From assembly GCA_012523975.1 (NCBI GenBank), contig JAAYSF010000040.1, forward strand, positions 1 to 55,025: a stretch of 55,025 nucleotides of DNA. The letters are read 5' to 3'. Below, in pieces: positions 35,206-43,420 of the stretch. The DNA comes from Veillonellaceae bacterium (GTDB lineage: Bacteria > Bacillota > Negativicutes > JAAYSF01). Position numbers and translations under genes: made by a program. Positions within the stretch are counted from its first letter, which is position 1; the number at the start of each line of letters is the position of its first letter. The notes under the pieces are model-generated. The model did not search any database and was not told the DNA's origin. It saw only the letters and a program-made list of their open reading frames with translations.

Positions 35206-38200
35206 ATGTCTGCAAATTTTAAGTTTTTACAGGGTCAAGCCCAATATCAGCTGTTTGCGCCTGCGGCTATGGAAGCCGAGCAGGTACTTGCGACTTCGCC
35301 TGCCATGGCGGCAGTTGGAGCCAGAAAAGCGTTAGAGCTTGCGGTGAAGTGGGTATATTCTGCCGATAATACCATTTCTATGCCCTATAAAAACAATTTG
35401 CAGGCCCTAATTCATGAGCCTAGTTTCCGGTTTGCTTTAGATCATAAAACCTGGGGTAAACTGCCGTATATAATCAAATTGGGCAATTTAGCGGTACACA
35501 CCGAGAAGGCAGTAAGTTACAACGATGCCGTATTATCACTACGCGGACTGTTTGAATTCATACAATGGATAGACTACTGTTATGGGGCAGACTACCAAGA
35601 ACGTCAATTTGATGAAACAGCAATACCTCAGGGAAAAACTGTTATTGATAATAGTATCATTAAGCAGAAGGATTCTGAAATCGAAAAACTACTAGCGCAA
35701 ATTGCTGCGATGAGCGAAGCGCTGACCGCGCAGAAGGAACAGCATAAGGAAGAACGGGCGTTTACCCCTGAGGATATTTCCGAGTTCCAAACTCGCAAGC
35801 GTTATATTGATGTAGAATTAAAGCTGCTTAGCTGGGTATTTGGTGATGATGTTAAAGAAGAAGTAGAAGTAACAGGTATGCCTAACCATGAAGGAAAGGG
35901 CTATGCTGACTATGTACTATACGGTAAAGACGGCTTGCCGCTAGCAGTGATCGAAGCTAAACGCACTTCAAAAGATCCTAAAATTGGTACCCACCAAGCT
36001 AAGCTGTATGCTGATTGTTTGGAGCGTATGACCGGCAGACGTCCGATAATGTTTATGACCAACGGGTTTGAATTTTATATATGGGATGACTGTTCCGCAC
36101 CTCGAAGAAAGATCAGCGGTATCTTTTCTAAGGCAGATCTGGAAAAGTTAATGAACCGCCGTTCTCAGCGTAAGAATTTAGCTGAAGTTAAAATTCAGGA
36201 CAGCATTACTGACCGTTACTATCAAAAAGAAGCCATTCGTGCTGTGTGCGAAAATATCGAATCAGGTCATCGCAAATCACTGTTGGTTATGGCAACAGGT
36301 ACGGGTAAAACTAGAACTTCATCAAGCCTTACCGATGTATTGTCACGGGGTGGGTATATTACTAATACTCTGTTTTTGGCTGACCGGACGGCGCTAGTCA
36401 AACAGGCGAAGGATGATTTTAAAACTTATCTGCCTGATATGTCTCTTTGTAATTTACTAAACGGCAAAGAAGATAAAAATGCCAGAATCGTTTTTTCTAC
36501 CTATCCGACTATGCTAAATTCGATTGACACGGCGAAAAATGAAGAGGGAAAGAAACTTTTTACGCCAGCTCATTTTGATTTGATCATTATAGATGAAGCG
36601 CATCGTAGCATCTTTAAAAAATATCGGGCTATTTTTGAGTACTTTGACGGATATTTAGTAGGCCTAACGGCAACGCCCAAAACCGAAGTTGACCGCAACA
36701 CATATGATTTCTTTGAAATGGAAAACGGTGTGCCAACATATGCCTATGACTATGACACGGCAGTCTACACCGATAAGGTGCTTGTACCGTATCACAATAT
36801 CGAAGTGCGTACGAAATTTCTCGAACAAGGTATTACTTATGATGAACTTTCACCAGAAGATAAGGCAAGGTATGAAGAGGATTTCACTGACGAAGATGGC
36901 GAAATGCCGGACTTTATACCTTCACCAGCTATAAACGAATTTATTTTCAATCAGCAGACAGTTGATTATGTGCTAGAGCACTTGATGAATAAAGGACTAA
37001 AGGTAGCAGGCGGTGATAAGCTGGGAAAAACAATCATCTTTGCAGCTAATCATAAACATGCTATGTATATAGAGGATCGATTTAATAAACTGTACCCCCA
37101 GTACAAAGGACAATTTGCTCAGATTATTGATAACAGAACACCTTATGCCCATGATCGAATTGCCGATTTCAAAGTTGCTGACAGATATCCGCAGATAGCA
37201 ATTTCGGTAGATATGCTAGACACTGGGATTGATGTACCGGAAATCGTTAATCTAGTATTCTTTAAAAAAGTGCGGTCAAAGACAAAATTCTGGCAGATGA
37301 TTGGGCGCGGTACTAGACTGTGCAAAAATCTGTTTGGTCCTGCTCAGGATAAAGAGTGTTTTTATATCTTCGATTATTTAGGTAACTTTGAGTTTTTCCG
37401 CCAGAACCCTCAGGGTATAGAATCTCGGGACGCAGAAAGTGTTACTGAGGCAATCTTCAGCAAAAAAATAAGGCTCATCGTTCATCTGCAGCATGCTGCT
37501 TTTGTCGATGATGCCTACCAGAATTGGCGCAGTCAGTTAATCGAAAACGTTGTTTCACAAATAAAGGCGCTGAATATTGAACTTGTATCGGTCAAACTTC
37601 AACTACAGCATGTAGAAAAATATAAAGATAAAAATGTTTTTATCTGTTTGGACGATAATGATAAACATAACTTAATAAAATATCTTGCACCGCTTGTTTT
37701 TATGGAAGAACAAGACGAATATGCAAAAGGCTTTGATAATCTGATGTATGGATTAATGCTTGCCCAGATTGAGGCTTTGCCCCAGTTTAACAAAAGTAAA
37801 CGACAATTAACCCATATGGGGGTAAAACTTGCTAAAAAAATTAGTATTCCACAAGTAAAAGAGAAAATAGAAATAATCAATATGATTCAAAGTGATGAAT
37901 TCTGGCATAATCCCGATATTTTATCATTTGAATCCGTGCGGATTGCCCTTAGGGACTTAATTAAGTTTATTGTTGATACGGGCGGAAAAAATGTAATCTA
38001 TACTAACTTATCTGACGGCATTATTGCCGTCAGAGAAGGCGATCCATTAAATCCTCCCTATGACTTTGAGGATTACAAGCATAAAGTCAATCGCTATATT
38101 GAAATGAACAAAGATAACCTGGCTATCTTTAAGCTGCGGAATAATCTTCCGTTAACTTCAGAAGATTATAAAAGCTTAGAGCATGTATTGACGGGCGAAC

Positions 38201-38529
38201 TTGGTACAAGAGAAGATTATCAGCGGGTATTTGGCGATACACCGTTTGGTTTATTGGTGCGTAAAATCGGCAAGCTTGAACACGAAGCCGCTATGAAGGT
38301 GTTTTCAGAATTCATCAATGATCAGTCTCTGAATCAAAAACAAATTGTATTTGTAAAAAAGATTGTAGACTATATAGTACAAAACGGCTATTTTGAAAAT
38401 ATGGCCGAGCTTATGAAGCCGCCATTTGATAAGCCTGATAGTTTTATAAAGTTGTTTGACAAAACAAAACAGCAGCGGATTATGGAGTTAGTGACAGAAG
38501 TTAAAGAAAATGCCGTGAGGGTTGTTTAA
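35206..38529 (+). CDS. hsdR: type I restriction enzyme endonuclease/translocase subunit
   Basis: A 1107-residue motor and nuclease subunit. Order: an N-terminal DUF4145-like helical domain; a PD-(D/E)xK nuclease with ADYVLY and AVIEAKR near residues 247-265; a superfamily 2 helicase with Walker A MATGTGKT, IIIDEAHRS, GLTATPK, DTGIDVPE and MIGRGTRLC; and a C-terminal EcoEI_R_C-like region. The DUF4145 fusion is a known variant of this family. GAGGTGATCG lies before the ATG, 18 bases after hsdS. It is complete, with a terminator after it. Without a working HsdM the enzyme is not expected to cleave. Confidence 0.95.
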   Translation: MSANFKFLQGQAQYQLFAPAAMEAEQVLATSPAMAAVGARKALELAVKWVYSADNTISMPYKNNLQALIHEPSFRFALDHKTWGKLPYIIKLGNLAVHTEKAVSYNDAVLSLRGLFEFIQWIDYCYGADYQERQFDETAIPQGKTVIDNSIIKQKDSEIEKLLAQIAAMSEALTAQKEQHKEERAFTPEDISEFQTRKRYIDVELKLLSWVFGDDVKEEVEVTGMPNHEGKGYADYVLYGKDGLPLAVIEAKRTSKDPKIGTHQAKLYADCLERMTGRRPIMFMTNGFEFYIWDDCSAPRRKISGIFSKADLEKLMNRRSQRKNLAEVKIQDSITDRYYQKEAIRAVCENIESGHRKSLLVMATGTGKTRTSSSLTDVLSRGGYITNTLFLADRTALVKQAKDDFKTYLPDMSLCNLLNGKEDKNARIVFSTYPTMLNSIDTAKNEEGKKLFTPAHFDLIIIDEAHRSIFKKYRAIFEYFDGYLVGLTATPKTEVDRNTYDFFEMENGVPTYAYDYDTAVYTDKVLVPYHNIEVRTKFLEQGITYDELSPEDKARYEEDFTDEDGEMPDFIPSPAINEFIFNQQTVDYVLEHLMNKGLKVAGGDKLGKTIIFAANHKHAMYIEDRFNKLYPQYKGQFAQIIDNRTPYAHDRIADFKVADRYPQIAISVDMLDTGIDVPEIVNLVFFKKVRSKTKFWQMIGRGTRLCKNLFGPAQDKECFYIFDYLGNFEFFRQNPQGIESRDAESVTEAIFSKKIRLIVHLQHAAFVDDAYQNWRSQLIENVVSQIKALNIELVSVKLQLQHVEKYKDKNVFICLDDNDKHNLIKYLAPLVFMEEQDEYAKGFDNLMYGLMLAQIEALPQFNKSKRQLTHMGVKLAKKISIPQVKEKIEIINMIQSDEFWHNPDILSFESVRIALRDLIKFIVDTGGKNVIYTNLSDGIIAVREGDPLNPPYDFEDYKHKVNRYIEMNKDNLAIFKLRNNLPLTSEDYKSLEHVLTGELGTREDYQRVFGDTPFGLLVRKIGKLEHEAAMKVFSEFINDQSLNQKQIVFVKKIVDYIVQNGYFENMAELMKPPFDKPDSFIKLFDKTKQQRIMELVTEVKENAVRVV

Positions 38530-38612: not shown

Positions 38613-38656
38613 AGATGGCTATTTGTCCAGTTATGGGCAAATAGCCATCTCTTTTC
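38613..38656 (+). terminator. rho-independent terminator after hsdR
   Basis: A perfect 14-bp stem GAGATGGCTATTTG/CAAATAGCCATCTC with a 12-base loop and TTTTC. The next 280 bases, to the antiporter stop codon, have no well-supported gene. Confidence 0.92.
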
Positions 38657-38938: not shown

Positions 38939-40177
38939 CTATGACAAATTTTCTTTAGGAGATTGTCCTACGACAACATAAGAAACCTCACGTTGCATGC
39001 CATAATATTTTAGCAGTAGCGCAACGATAAAATTGAAGACAAAACAGCCGGCAAAGAAATACAAGGTAAGCGTATAGCCGCTGGTTGATTCCCGCAGCCA
39101 TGATACGAGAAATGGTCCTGCAACACCGGCCAGTCCCCAGGCAGTCAGAATCCTGCCATGAATAGCACTCAGTTTCCTGGTGCCAAAAATATCGCTAAGA
39201 TATGCCGGCATACAAGAAAAGCCGCCTCCATAGCAAGTAATGATTAGCAGCACCAGTGTTTCGAAAAAAATGGCTTCTGTTGTTGCAGCCAGTTTCCAAA
39301 ACGCAAGAGCTTCCAACAAAAAGAAAAGTGCATATGTGTAACCGCGACCAATATAATCTGAAAACGTTGACCAAAAGATACGTCCGGCACCGTTAAACAG
39401 GCCGATGATGCCAACCAGAGAAGCCGCTGCCATCGGGCTCATGCCGATTACTTCCTGTGCCATTGGCGAGGCCACAGCCAAAAGACCAATGCCACAAGTT
39501 ATATTTACGAAAAAAATAAACCACAAAGCACTGAATTGCCATGTTTTCAATGCCTCATTCTCGGTATAACCGTGCTGTATATCAGGACTTTGCTGCTTTG
39601 CATTATTATATTCTTCAGTTGGAGGTTTTAAATAAAGCGCGGATAATCCCATAACAATTATATATACGGTTCCGAGAATTAGAAAGTTTTCTACCAATCC
39701 ATAGGATGCTGTTAAACGTTGCATCAAAGGTCCTGCAATCAGGCTGGCAAAACCGAAGCCCATAATGGCAAGTCCTGTTGCAAACCCCCGGTGCCTTGGA
39801 AAATATTTAACCAGTGTTGAAACTGGTGTAATATACCCGATTCCCAAACCGATTCCGCCAATTACACCATAAAACAAATATAATAGTAGCAAACTATGCA
39901 AATGCAGAGCCAGTGCTGTGCCAAACATCCCAGCTCCCCAAAATAAAGCTGCAAATAACCCGCTCTTTTTGGGACCGTATTTTTCTACACAACTTCCCAA
40001 TAAACCTGCTGATAAGCCTAAAAATAAAATAGCCAGTGAAAATGTCCAAGTAGTTTCTTTCAAAGAAAAGCCCATGGTTTCCATAATCGGACGAACCAGT
40101 ACACTCCAAGCATAAACACTACCGATACTGATATGAATTCCCACAGCAGCAAGAGCAATAAGCCAGCGATTTCTCAT
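38939..40177 (-). CDS. OFA-family MFS transporter (oxalate/formate antiporter-like)
   Basis: A 412-residue permease with twelve predicted helices, of the oxalate:formate antiporter family of the major facilitator superfamily. The first helix begins GIHISIGSVYAWSVLVRP, typical of the family, and a PRHRGFATGLAIMGFGFASLIAGP loop follows. Members exchange oxalate, formate or other short carboxylates; the real substrate is unknown. ATG 40177 follows AGAAGGG by nine bases; an upstream longer frame lies in the leader. The leader carries a strong promoter and a probable ZTP riboswitch, so expression is expected to rise when one-carbon (10-formyl-tetrahydrofolate) supply is short. Confidence 0.9.
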   Translation of the reverse strand: MRNRWLIALAAVGIHISIGSVYAWSVLVRPIMETMGFSLKETTWTFSLAILFLGLSAGLLGSCVEKYGPKKSGLFAALFWGAGMFGTALALHLHSLLLLYLFYGVIGGIGLGIGYITPVSTLVKYFPRHRGFATGLAIMGFGFASLIAGPLMQRLTASYGLVENFLILGTVYIIVMGLSALYLKPPTEEYNNAKQQSPDIQHGYTENEALKTWQFSALWFIFFVNITCGIGLLAVASPMAQEVIGMSPMAAASLVGIIGLFNGAGRIFWSTFSDYIGRGYTYALFFLLEALAFWKLAATTEAIFFETLVLLIITCYGGGFSCMPAYLSDIFGTRKLSAIHGRILTAWGLAGVAGPFLVSWLRESTSGYTLTLYFFAGCFVFNFIVALLLKYYGMQREVSYVVVGQSPKENLS

Positions 40178-40223: not shown

Positions 40224-40324
40224 CAAAAAACCATCTGGGCATCATCTCTTTGCCCAGACGGTCGGCTTATTTGAACTCTGCAGTACACGTGGTCATTTCC
40301 ACTTAATCCGTCAGTCCTGCACAG
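40224..40324 (-). promoter_or_regulatory. probable ZTP (pfl) riboswitch with terminator
   Basis: On the minus strand: P1 TGCAG/CTGCA, junction GACTGACGG, P2 GTGG/CCAC, a linker, then GCCGACCGTCTGGGCA, the conserved 3' element of the ZTP/pfl aptamer. The 3' element is also the 5' arm of an 11-bp terminator stem (40231-40241 with 40251-40261, one mismatch), followed by six T residues. Aptamer folding and terminator formation therefore compete. The family call is by eye, from memory of the consensus. Confidence 0.75.
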
Positions 40325-40346
40325 TCTATGAACTTTTAATATAGCT

Positions 40347-40375
40347 ATTATAACAATCGATCAGAATGGTGTCAA
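40347..40375 (-). promoter_or_regulatory. sigma-A promoter of the OFA transporter leader
   Basis: On the minus strand TTGACA and TATAAT are 17 bases apart, both perfect consensus. About 160 bases of leader follow before the ATG. Confidence 0.92.
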
Positions 40376-40614: not shown

Positions 40615-40643
40615 TTGACTTACCACAATATGTAAATTATAAT
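40615..40643 (+). promoter_or_regulatory. sigma-A promoter of the thioredoxin-domain gene
   Basis: TTGACT and TATAAT separated by 17 bases, about 105 bases before the start codon. An inverted repeat ATAACG-N6-CGTTAT at 40659-40676 lies just after the expected transcription start and may be an operator. Confidence 0.82.
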
Positions 40644-40747
40644 AAAAGAAACTAACGAATAACGATTATCCGTTATCGATTATATAACGTATGTAAACCC
40701 ATCACCAAGCAAATCCTAAACAGTAGCAAAAAAACGAGGTGATACTA

Positions 40748-42820
40748 ATGTCTACCAAGCACGTTAACCACCTAGCCAACGAAAAGAGTCCATACCTACT
40801 TCAACACGCCCACAACCCAATAGACTGGTATCCCTGGGGCGAAGAAGCTTTTGCCAAAGCCAAGGCTGAAGACAAGCCGATATTTTTAAGTATCGGCTAT
40901 AGTACTTGCCACTGGTGCCATGTAATGGAGAGGGAGTCCTTTGAGGATGAAGCGGTAGCAGAGATTCTAAATCGACATTTTGTGTCGATAAAGGTTGATC
41001 GCGAGGAACGGCCGGATGTTGATCATATTTATATGGAGGTGTGCCAAGCGCTGACGAGATCGGGCGGTTGGCCGTTAACTATTATTATGACGCCGGATAA
41101 AAAACCCTTTTTTGCGGGAACTTATTTTCCGAAAACCAGTAAGTACGGGCGTCCGGGGCTCATCGATTTACTTAAAGCTATAAGCCAGCGATGGCAGGAA
41201 AAGCGAGAAGATTTAATTGGTTTTAGCGATGAGATCGTCGAACTGCTTCAGCACCAGGAAAAAGCGTCGGTCGATGCTACGTTGTCAAAAGGCTTGCTTG
41301 ATACTGCGTTTGAACAGCTTGAACGGGACTTTGATCCACGATATGGAGGCTTTTCTAAGGCGCCTAAGTTCCCTACGCCGCATAATATGCTCTTTCTATT
41401 AAGGTACTGGAAACATAATAATAATGCTAAGGCCCTAGAAATGGTTGAAAAAACTCTTACTGCTATGCGGAAGGGCGGAATATACGATCATCTTGGTTAT
41501 GGATTTTCCCGGTATTCGACAGACGATAAATGGCTGGTGCCGCATTTTGAAAAAATGCTCTATGATAATGCCCTGCTATGCCATGTCTATCTCGAAGCTT
41601 ATCAATGCACCGGCAATAAGGACTACGCTAAGGTAGCCGAGCAAATACTTACTTATGTTATGCGCGATATGACCAATGCCGAAGGTGGTTTTTATTCAGC
41701 GGAAGACGCTGACTCCGAAGGTGAGGAAGGTAAATTTTATGTATTTACCAGGCAGCAGATTTTAGATTTACTAGGCGAAAAAGACGGAACACTCTTCGCT
41801 GATTTTTACGATATAACACCACAAGGCAATTTTGAACATGGTTCAAGTATTCTAAATTATGTTGACAATGATATCGAGTCTTACGCTGCCAGAGTAGGTC
41901 TTGAAGCAGTGGATTTAACCAGAAAGCTAGAAGAGTGCAGTGCTAAGCTGTATCGGTATCGGGATAAACGGGTCCACCCGTATAAGGATGACAAAGTATT
42001 AACGGTTTGGAATGCCTTAATGATTTCAGCTTTTGCCAAAGCAGCTCGAGTTTTGGATGGTGCCTGTTATGCCGAGTATGCTGAACGGGCTTTTAAGTTT
42101 ATTAAAAATAAGCTTATCAGCAAGGACTGTAGGCTGCTGGCGCGCTATCGCGATGGCGAAGCAGCGCACTTAGCATATTTAGACGATTATGCATTTCTAT
42201 TATGGGCCTTAATAGAGCTATACGAGACAATCTACTCGCCGCTATATATAAAATGGGCCCAAGATGTTTGCCAAGAGATGCAGAGGTTGTTTTGGGACGA
42301 GAAAAACGGTGGTTTTTTCTTCTACGGCATAGACGGTGAACAGCTTTTGACAAGACCAAAAGAAATTTATGATGGAGCAATTCCGTCAGGCAATTCAGTG
42401 GCTGCTTTTGCTTTGCTAAGGCTAGCAAACATTACCGGCAAAGGTCAGTTTCAAAGTTTGGCAGAAAGGTTATTGCAGACTTTTGCCGGACAGGTGGAAA
42501 AAATTCCACGGGCGCATACTTTTTACCTTATAGCGTTAGACTATCATTTGTCGGCACAGCGCAAGATTGTTATAGCAGGAACGGGCGCTTCTAAAGACGT
42601 CTGGAATATGCTATCTGCTGCAGGTAAGCGCTTTTTGCCTAATACAGTAACAGTTTTTAATGATACAAGCCAAGCTGATATTATGCGAAAGGTGATACCG
42701 GAGGTCGTGGATCAATTACCGGTTAACGGTCAGACCGCGGCTTATATTTGTGAAAACTTTACTTGCCGGCCGCCTATAATCGGTATCGAGAACTTTATAA
42801 AGCAAATCAATAAGATTTAA
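40748..42820 (+). CDS. thioredoxin domain-containing protein, YyaL/SPATA20 family
   Basis: A 690-residue cytoplasmic protein with an N-terminal thioredoxin-like domain (DUF255) carrying CHWCHVM (Cys54 and Cys57) and a C-terminal (alpha/alpha)6-barrel resembling N-acylglucosamine 2-epimerase, with [10 protein letters not shown] and YDNALL blocks. YyaL-family proteins are widespread, and their biochemical role is not settled. The start is ATG 40748 after CGAGGTGA; the in-frame GTG at 40739 lies in that binding site. It has its own promoter and is monocistronic before ferritin. Confidence 0.92.
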
Positions 42821-42901: not shown

Positions 42902-43420
42902 ATGATTAATCAAAAAATGCAAGATGCCATCAACAGCCAAATCCAGGCAGAATTTTATTCCGCGTATCTTTATCTTTCAATGTCAGCATATTGCGAAAGC
43001 AAAAGTCTGAAAGGTTTTGCCAATTGGTTAAACGTGCAATATCAGGAAGAAAATTCACATGCAATGATGCTACTGAATTATCTTCTTGAACGCGGCGGTA
43101 AGGTTCGCCTTGATACCATTGATGCTCCGCCTTCCGAATTTGGCACTATAACCGAACTTTTTGAAAAAGTTCTTACGCATGAACAGCATGTTACTAGTTT
43201 AATTAATAAATTGTATGAAACCGCCGTTAGTGAAAAAGATTTCGCAGCGCAAATCTTCCTCCAGTGGTTTATAAATGAACAGGTTGAAGAAGAAGCGAGC
43301 GTTGGAGAAGTACTGGACAAACTTTCGGTAATTGGTGAAAAAACAGTAGACATTTTATATTTAGATAAAGAACTAAGTGTCAGAACTTTTGTCCCGCCTA
43401 CAGCCGGGAGCAATGCATAG
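42902..43420 (+). CDS. ftnA: non-heme ferritin
   Basis: A 172-residue iron-storage protein forming a 24-mer shell. The ferroxidase-site residues are visible: Glu17 in QAEFYSAYLYL, Glu50 and His53 in YQEENSHAM, and the later glutamate in the EQVEEE helix. Length and motifs match bacterial FtnA. AGGAGGG precedes the ATG. It has its own promoter and a terminator. Confidence 0.95.
   Translation: MINQKMQDAINSQIQAEFYSAYLYLSMSAYCESKSLKGFANWLNVQYQEENSHAMMLLNYLLERGGKVRLDTIDAPPSEFGTITELFEKVLTHEQHVTSLINKLYETAVSEKDFAAQIFLQWFINEQVEEEASVGEVLDKLSVIGEKTVDILYLDKELSVRTFVPPTAGSNA

Follow-up and report, generated by a model that had tools for sequence, protein, structure and literature searches.

An SfMCT-like carrier gene under a ZMP/ZTP riboswitch in Negativicutes: a probable formate importer

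Which substrate does an MFS carrier move when its gene lies behind a ZMP/ZTP (pfl) riboswitch, and what would the cell gain from this control? The question is raised by a locus of a Veillonellaceae bacterium, located in the 55,025-nucleotide stretch of DNA that was analysed as a whole (the window). The substrate of the carrier has been guessed from databases, with labels for lactate or oxalate, and the riboswitch provides a functional handle on it. The first-pass annotation had described a consensus promoter, a leader with ZTP-like parts in order whose last element doubles as half of a terminator, and an OFA-family antiporter suggested to handle formate for one-carbon supply.

The locus was examined for each of these elements (Table 1). 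Between 40375 and 40175 the minus strand shows a promoter, then a structured leader and finally the start codon, an ATG at 40177 preceded by AGAAGGG; the promoter proved to be a full match to the consensus. The Rfam covariance model RF01750 was aligned with the leader and returned a full-length match (model positions 1-86 of 86) with a score of 61.2 bits against a gathering score of 39 and an E-value of 1.5e-7 for the whole window. This aptamer was the sole Rfam match in the 55-kb window, and the next best RF01750 matches near it were noise only. GACTGACGG, GTGG/CCAC and GCCGACCGTCTGGGCA of the leader all fell in place on the model, thus confirming a full-length, textbook ZMP/ZTP riboswitch between the promoter and the transporter gene. 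Binding of ZMP/ZTP by the aptamer is expected by analogy with the known riboswitch class.

The 5' arm of the terminator coincides with the P3/pseudoknot strand of the aptamer (overlap at 40263-40251), so that the mutually exclusive design annotated earlier was borne out. RNAfold calculations returned -20.5 kcal/mol both for the 42-nt terminator segment by itself and for the aptamer by itself, the latter computed without its pseudoknot. A simple terminator scan of the leader did not pick up the 13-bp stem, probably owing to its loop limit of 8. Since the 13-pair stem is built from P3 and pseudoknot bases of the aptamer, the expression platform is predicted to exclude the aptamer mutually and to work as a transcriptional ON switch, a direction that follows from the overlap and from the known riboswitch class. 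Downstream, the transporter gene and a plus-strand gene (35206-38529) converge on an inverted repeat that probably serves as a terminator for both, and the transporter transcript looks monocistronic.

Some features of the divergent side were also recorded. The plus-strand gene 40739-42820 resembles DUF255/YyaL by eye and is followed by a ferritin-like gene (42902-43420). Upstream of the former, within 40615-40677, there is a promoter (TTGACT-17-TATAAT, 11/12 consensus), and a Fur box-like inverted repeat, GAATAACGATTATCCGTTATC, occupies 40657-40677, roughly at the expected transcription start.

Table 1. Coordinates of the features at the carrier locus and of the ZTP aptamers found before FNT-family genes in three genomes without the carrier.
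Feature	Position	Strand	Description
Sigma-70-type promoter	40375-40347	-	TTGACA-17-TATAAT, extended -10 TG; consensus match 12/12
ZMP/ZTP (pfl) riboswitch aptamer	40328-40245	-	P1, J1/2 GACTGACGG, P2 GTGG/CCAC, P3 element GCCGACCGTCTGGGC; Rfam RF01750
Intrinsic terminator	40263-40229	-	GACCGTCTGGGCA (40263-40251) / TGCCCAGATGGTT (40241-40229); 13-bp stem, 9-nt loop, run of six T
MFS monocarboxylate transporter, SfMCT-like	40177-38939	-	412 aa; Pfam MFS_1 132.5 bits; probable formate importer
Inverted repeat	38614-38649	.	From sequence; probable shared terminator
ZTP aptamer directly upstream of divergent FNT-family gene	L218 3413-3493	-	
ZTP aptamer directly upstream of divergent FNT-family gene	L219 2250-2330	+	
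ZTP aptamer directly upstream of divergent FNT-family gene	L220 2317-2397	+	

The conservation of the riboswitch-carrier link was then evaluated. Carrier homologues were sought in 380 genomes of the class, whose named members are Negativicutes, and the DNA around 148 homologue matches was scanned with a ZTP model made from 22 class aptamers. An aptamer was found upstream on the same strand in 140 of the 148, spread over 12 families (the source genome and at least 139 others), at a median distance of 76 nt from the start codon (range 38-241 nt), and every homologue with at least 70% identity carried one (69/69). As for the eight homologues lacking an aptamer, one is located at a contig end and seven show 54-63% identity; two of these seven (in G137 and G138) are paralogues, whose genomes also carry a ZTP-linked copy. 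In both paralogues (L153, L157) Tyr316 is changed to Ser, and a change of substrate after duplication is probable. Two ZTP aptamers in tandem, spaced by about 120 nt, precede the transporter in six leaders from three families (L163, L164, L166, L172, L173 and L181; genomes G289, G290, G311, G313, G316 and G317).

Covariation in P1 extended to 8/8 pairs among 61 distinct homologous leaders, with a score of 0.430 versus a maximum of 0.084 for slid versions, the alignment being fitted to the model, which favours this score somewhat. Of 138 leaders, 111 have an overlapping terminator whose stem reaches at least 12 pairs, where shuffling of the downstream sequence would yield 1.2, and thus the ON design is conserved; by the criterion used at this locus, the same overlapping-terminator design was present in 121/138 leaders compared with 8.8 after shuffling. 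The link between riboswitch and transporter is therefore not a local accident. Neither of the outcomes that the first-pass annotation had named as refuting it occurred, since the covariance model matched above its threshold and the leaders of relatives keep the J1/2 and P3-loop sequences, with covariation in P1/P2. A contig search with the carrier protein returned two loci only. In a genome of another class, an aptamer just above the gathering score (39.4 bits; L206 1312-1392, plus strand) precedes an SfMCT-like gene with about 37% identity, a link that is possibly independent or old.

The identity of the carrier was assessed by comparison with protein family models and with transporters of known structure. 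The protein scored 380.5 bits with NCBIfam NF049980 ("L-lactate MFS transporter", SfMCT), above the cut-off of 320, while the two OFA models remained far below theirs (TIGR00890, 200.3 vs 374.85 bits; TIGR04259, 149.9 vs 335 bits). The nearest solved chains were SfMCT (PDB 6g9x, about 120 bits with phmmer) and then the oxalate:formate antiporter OxlT (8hpj, 101 bits; also 8hpk). The OxlT structure paper (PMC10070484) describes Arg272 and Lys355 as conserved across the OFA family, with strict conservation of Gln34 and Thr38. The carrier keeps the arginine as R266, as well as the equivalent of OxlT Y124, and has W347, V21 and S25 in place of Lys355, Gln34 and Thr38; the 140 ZTP-linked homologues likewise keep the Arg and show Trp in 138/138 sequences having that column, Val in 140/140 and Ser in 139/140. 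Five SfMCT residues hold the carboxylate, namely R280, N276, Y119, Y331 and F335 (PMC6573034), and all of them have equivalents in the carrier (R266, N262, Y115, Y316 and F320). With three OFA residues (Lys, Gln and Thr) exchanged and the SfMCT carboxylate residues kept, the protein is, judging from its residues, an SfMCT-like carrier that handles a small carboxylate through a single binding charge, and no OFA antiporter.

The superfamily likeness to TIGR04259 (150 bits) and to the OxlT chain would agree with an OFA-type oxalate:formate antiporter, but the OFA assignment of the first-pass annotation fails on both the model cut-offs and the signature residues, and was rejected. Its antiporter claim found nothing in favour, the closest solved relative, SfMCT, being a proton-coupled monocarboxylate carrier. 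Moreover, oxalyl-CoA decarboxylase was above its cut-off in 0/380 class genomes; weaker matches in 317 genomes, with no score beyond about 250 bits where the cut-off is 739, probably represent other thiamine-diphosphate enzymes. Oxalate was ruled out as a substrate on this ground, and we give the OFA-type antiporter next to no credence.

With respect to SfMCT, the carrier shares the MFS fold family and differs in the pocket, where C362 becomes W, L145 becomes F and F359 becomes L (SfMCT numbering). His15 and His340 are typical of the carrier subfamily, whose genomic context is formate and purine metabolism. The position of OxlT Lys355 and SfMCT Cys362 is Trp347 in every homologue with that column, and this residue may narrow the pocket. 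Trp347 was discarded as a marker of ZTP control, since it is common to homologues without ZTP and so does not track the riboswitch. SfMCT, the nearest relative with both a solved structure and a known function, carries L-lactate, and good competition requires at least three carbons (PMC6573034), which speaks against formate.

The main rival to formate uptake is that the carrier imports L-lactate or pyruvate and that ZTP induces the supply of substrate for pyruvate formate-lyase (PFL), which makes formate. Lactate is used by several Negativicutes. The NF049980 match above cut-off, the conserved carboxylate residues and the presence of pflBA in the same regulon all speak for this rival. However, four LctP lactate permeases already occur in this genome, the pocket is altered relative to SfMCT, and the experimental basis found for the lactate name is one distant protein, SfMCT. 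It is further opposed by two observations described below, the exchange of the carrier for an FNT-family gene in three genomes and the formate dehydrogenase or fdhD genes beside homologues. Overall, we consider the import of lactate or pyruvate unlikely. As a separate observation, three LctP-type permease genes of this genome lie inside 10 kb (G000:C73:56468-66277).

In three related genomes of one genus that lack the carrier (g44; G104, G109 and G115), a single ZTP aptamer was located directly before an FNT-family gene, with Rfam scores of 52, 51.7 and 53 bits, above gathering. These FNT genes scored higher with FocA than with NirC, both under the model cut-offs, and in two of the three loci (L218, L219, L220) the ZTP-FNT unit lies between trpEG and a pfkB-like gene. 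FocA and the other FNT formate channels (PF01226) have a fold unrelated to that of the carrier, and no FNT channel was found in this genome; the FNT channel is the probable functional equivalent of the carrier. An in-place replacement of the carrier by FNT was looked for and not found, the FNT unit occupying a different locus, beside trpEG and pfkB. The three genomes are close relatives in one clade, and the swap thus counts as one evolutionary event. FNT (formate/nitrite) channels also pass other small anions, and the swap is therefore no proof of formate.

Carrier and FNT channel were also mutually exclusive in two genera: in genus g20, three genomes have the carrier only and 11 the FNT only (both in 0/14), and in genus g60 the numbers are seven and three (both in 0/11). 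Across the class they occur together in 36 genomes, and a class-wide exclusion was dismissed as a weak trend only (OR 0.55, p 0.013 unadjusted); the stratified test was likewise weak (all FNT, OR 0.49, p 0.11; strong FNT, p 0.027). Three homologues from other classes without ZTP (L195, L199 and L200) adjoin formate dehydrogenase alpha-type genes and/or fdhD. Taken together, the FNT swap, the ZTP regulon, the formate dehydrogenase and fdhD neighbours and the four LctP permeases point to formate rather than lactate. The formate of the first-pass annotation thus finds its backing in a comparison of gene contexts, while its link to one-carbon supply held. Another small acid, one-carbon-related or not, such as glyoxylate or glycolate on the way to glycine, is conceivable, since formate is read from context and any small monocarboxylate could be accommodated at the carboxylate site; a more direct indication of formate comes from the FNT swap and the formate dehydrogenase neighbours, and this alternative appears very improbable.

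The second and only other ZTP switch of this genome precedes pflB and pflA, both above the NCBIfam equivalog cut-offs, and in the two other genomes of the same family ZTP was likewise found before pflB. The class ZTP sites examined lie before pflB, pflA, fhs, AICAR transformylase (purH), folD and the carrier, the gene names having been assigned by eye from sequence except for PFL. The target enzymes cover the production of formate, its activation and its use on AICAR. One fhs is present in this genome, and in G100 the ZTP-carrier unit is immediately preceded by fhs in the same orientation.

On these grounds, we regard it as probable that the riboswitch turns on the SfMCT-like carrier when 10-formyl-THF is short and that the carrier takes up formate for Fhs. 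Purine synthesis stalled at AICAR would lead to accumulation of ZMP/ZTP, which would bind the nascent leader and hold the P3/pseudoknot strand within the aptamer; the terminator would then not form and transcription would run on into the carrier gene. Formate would enter through the carrier, presumably together with a proton, the import direction and the proton coupling both being inferred by analogy with SfMCT, and Fhs would join formate to THF, restoring 10-formyl-THF. As the second switch would turn on pflBA, a single signal would govern both the production and the import of formate.

The same PFL might instead call for a carrier that exports formate or acts as a two-way valve, venting the product of the co-induced enzyme, and FNT channels such as FocA work in both directions. 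However, ZTP signals a lack of 10-formyl-THF, and export would therefore oppose the rest of the regulon (fhs, purH, folD), which makes a role in export improbable. Returning to formate import, we hold it somewhat more plausible than not that the subfamily with the marks His15, His340 and Trp347 is devoted to formate import and separate from both FNT channels and OxlT, that within Negativicutes it provides the transport side of a ZTP regulon through which formate is made, imported, activated and used, and that the name "L-lactate MFS transporter" misdescribes this branch.

ZMP/ZTP riboswitches go with one-carbon and purine genes (PMC2864571, PMC7337938). The present one resembles them in its full-length aptamer, overlapping terminator, predicted ON switch and one-carbon/purine link, and differs in its target, a transporter, whereas the targets in those papers are enzymes (purH, fhs, pfl, glyA, folD). 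In the literature searched, no relevant paper connects ZTP, riboswitch and oxalate. None of the papers compared names the transporter among the ZTP targets, and a prior mention is possible in Kim et al. 2015 (Mol Cell 57:317), reportedly the gene survey of this riboswitch class. The riboswitch itself is ordinary and no first is claimed for its target; the functional prediction is the part worth following.

Formate import by the carrier, if correct, would account for the uptake of formate for purine synthesis in Negativicutes that lack an FNT channel, would give the ZTP alarmone response a transport arm and would correct the labelling of about 140 genes within this survey alone.
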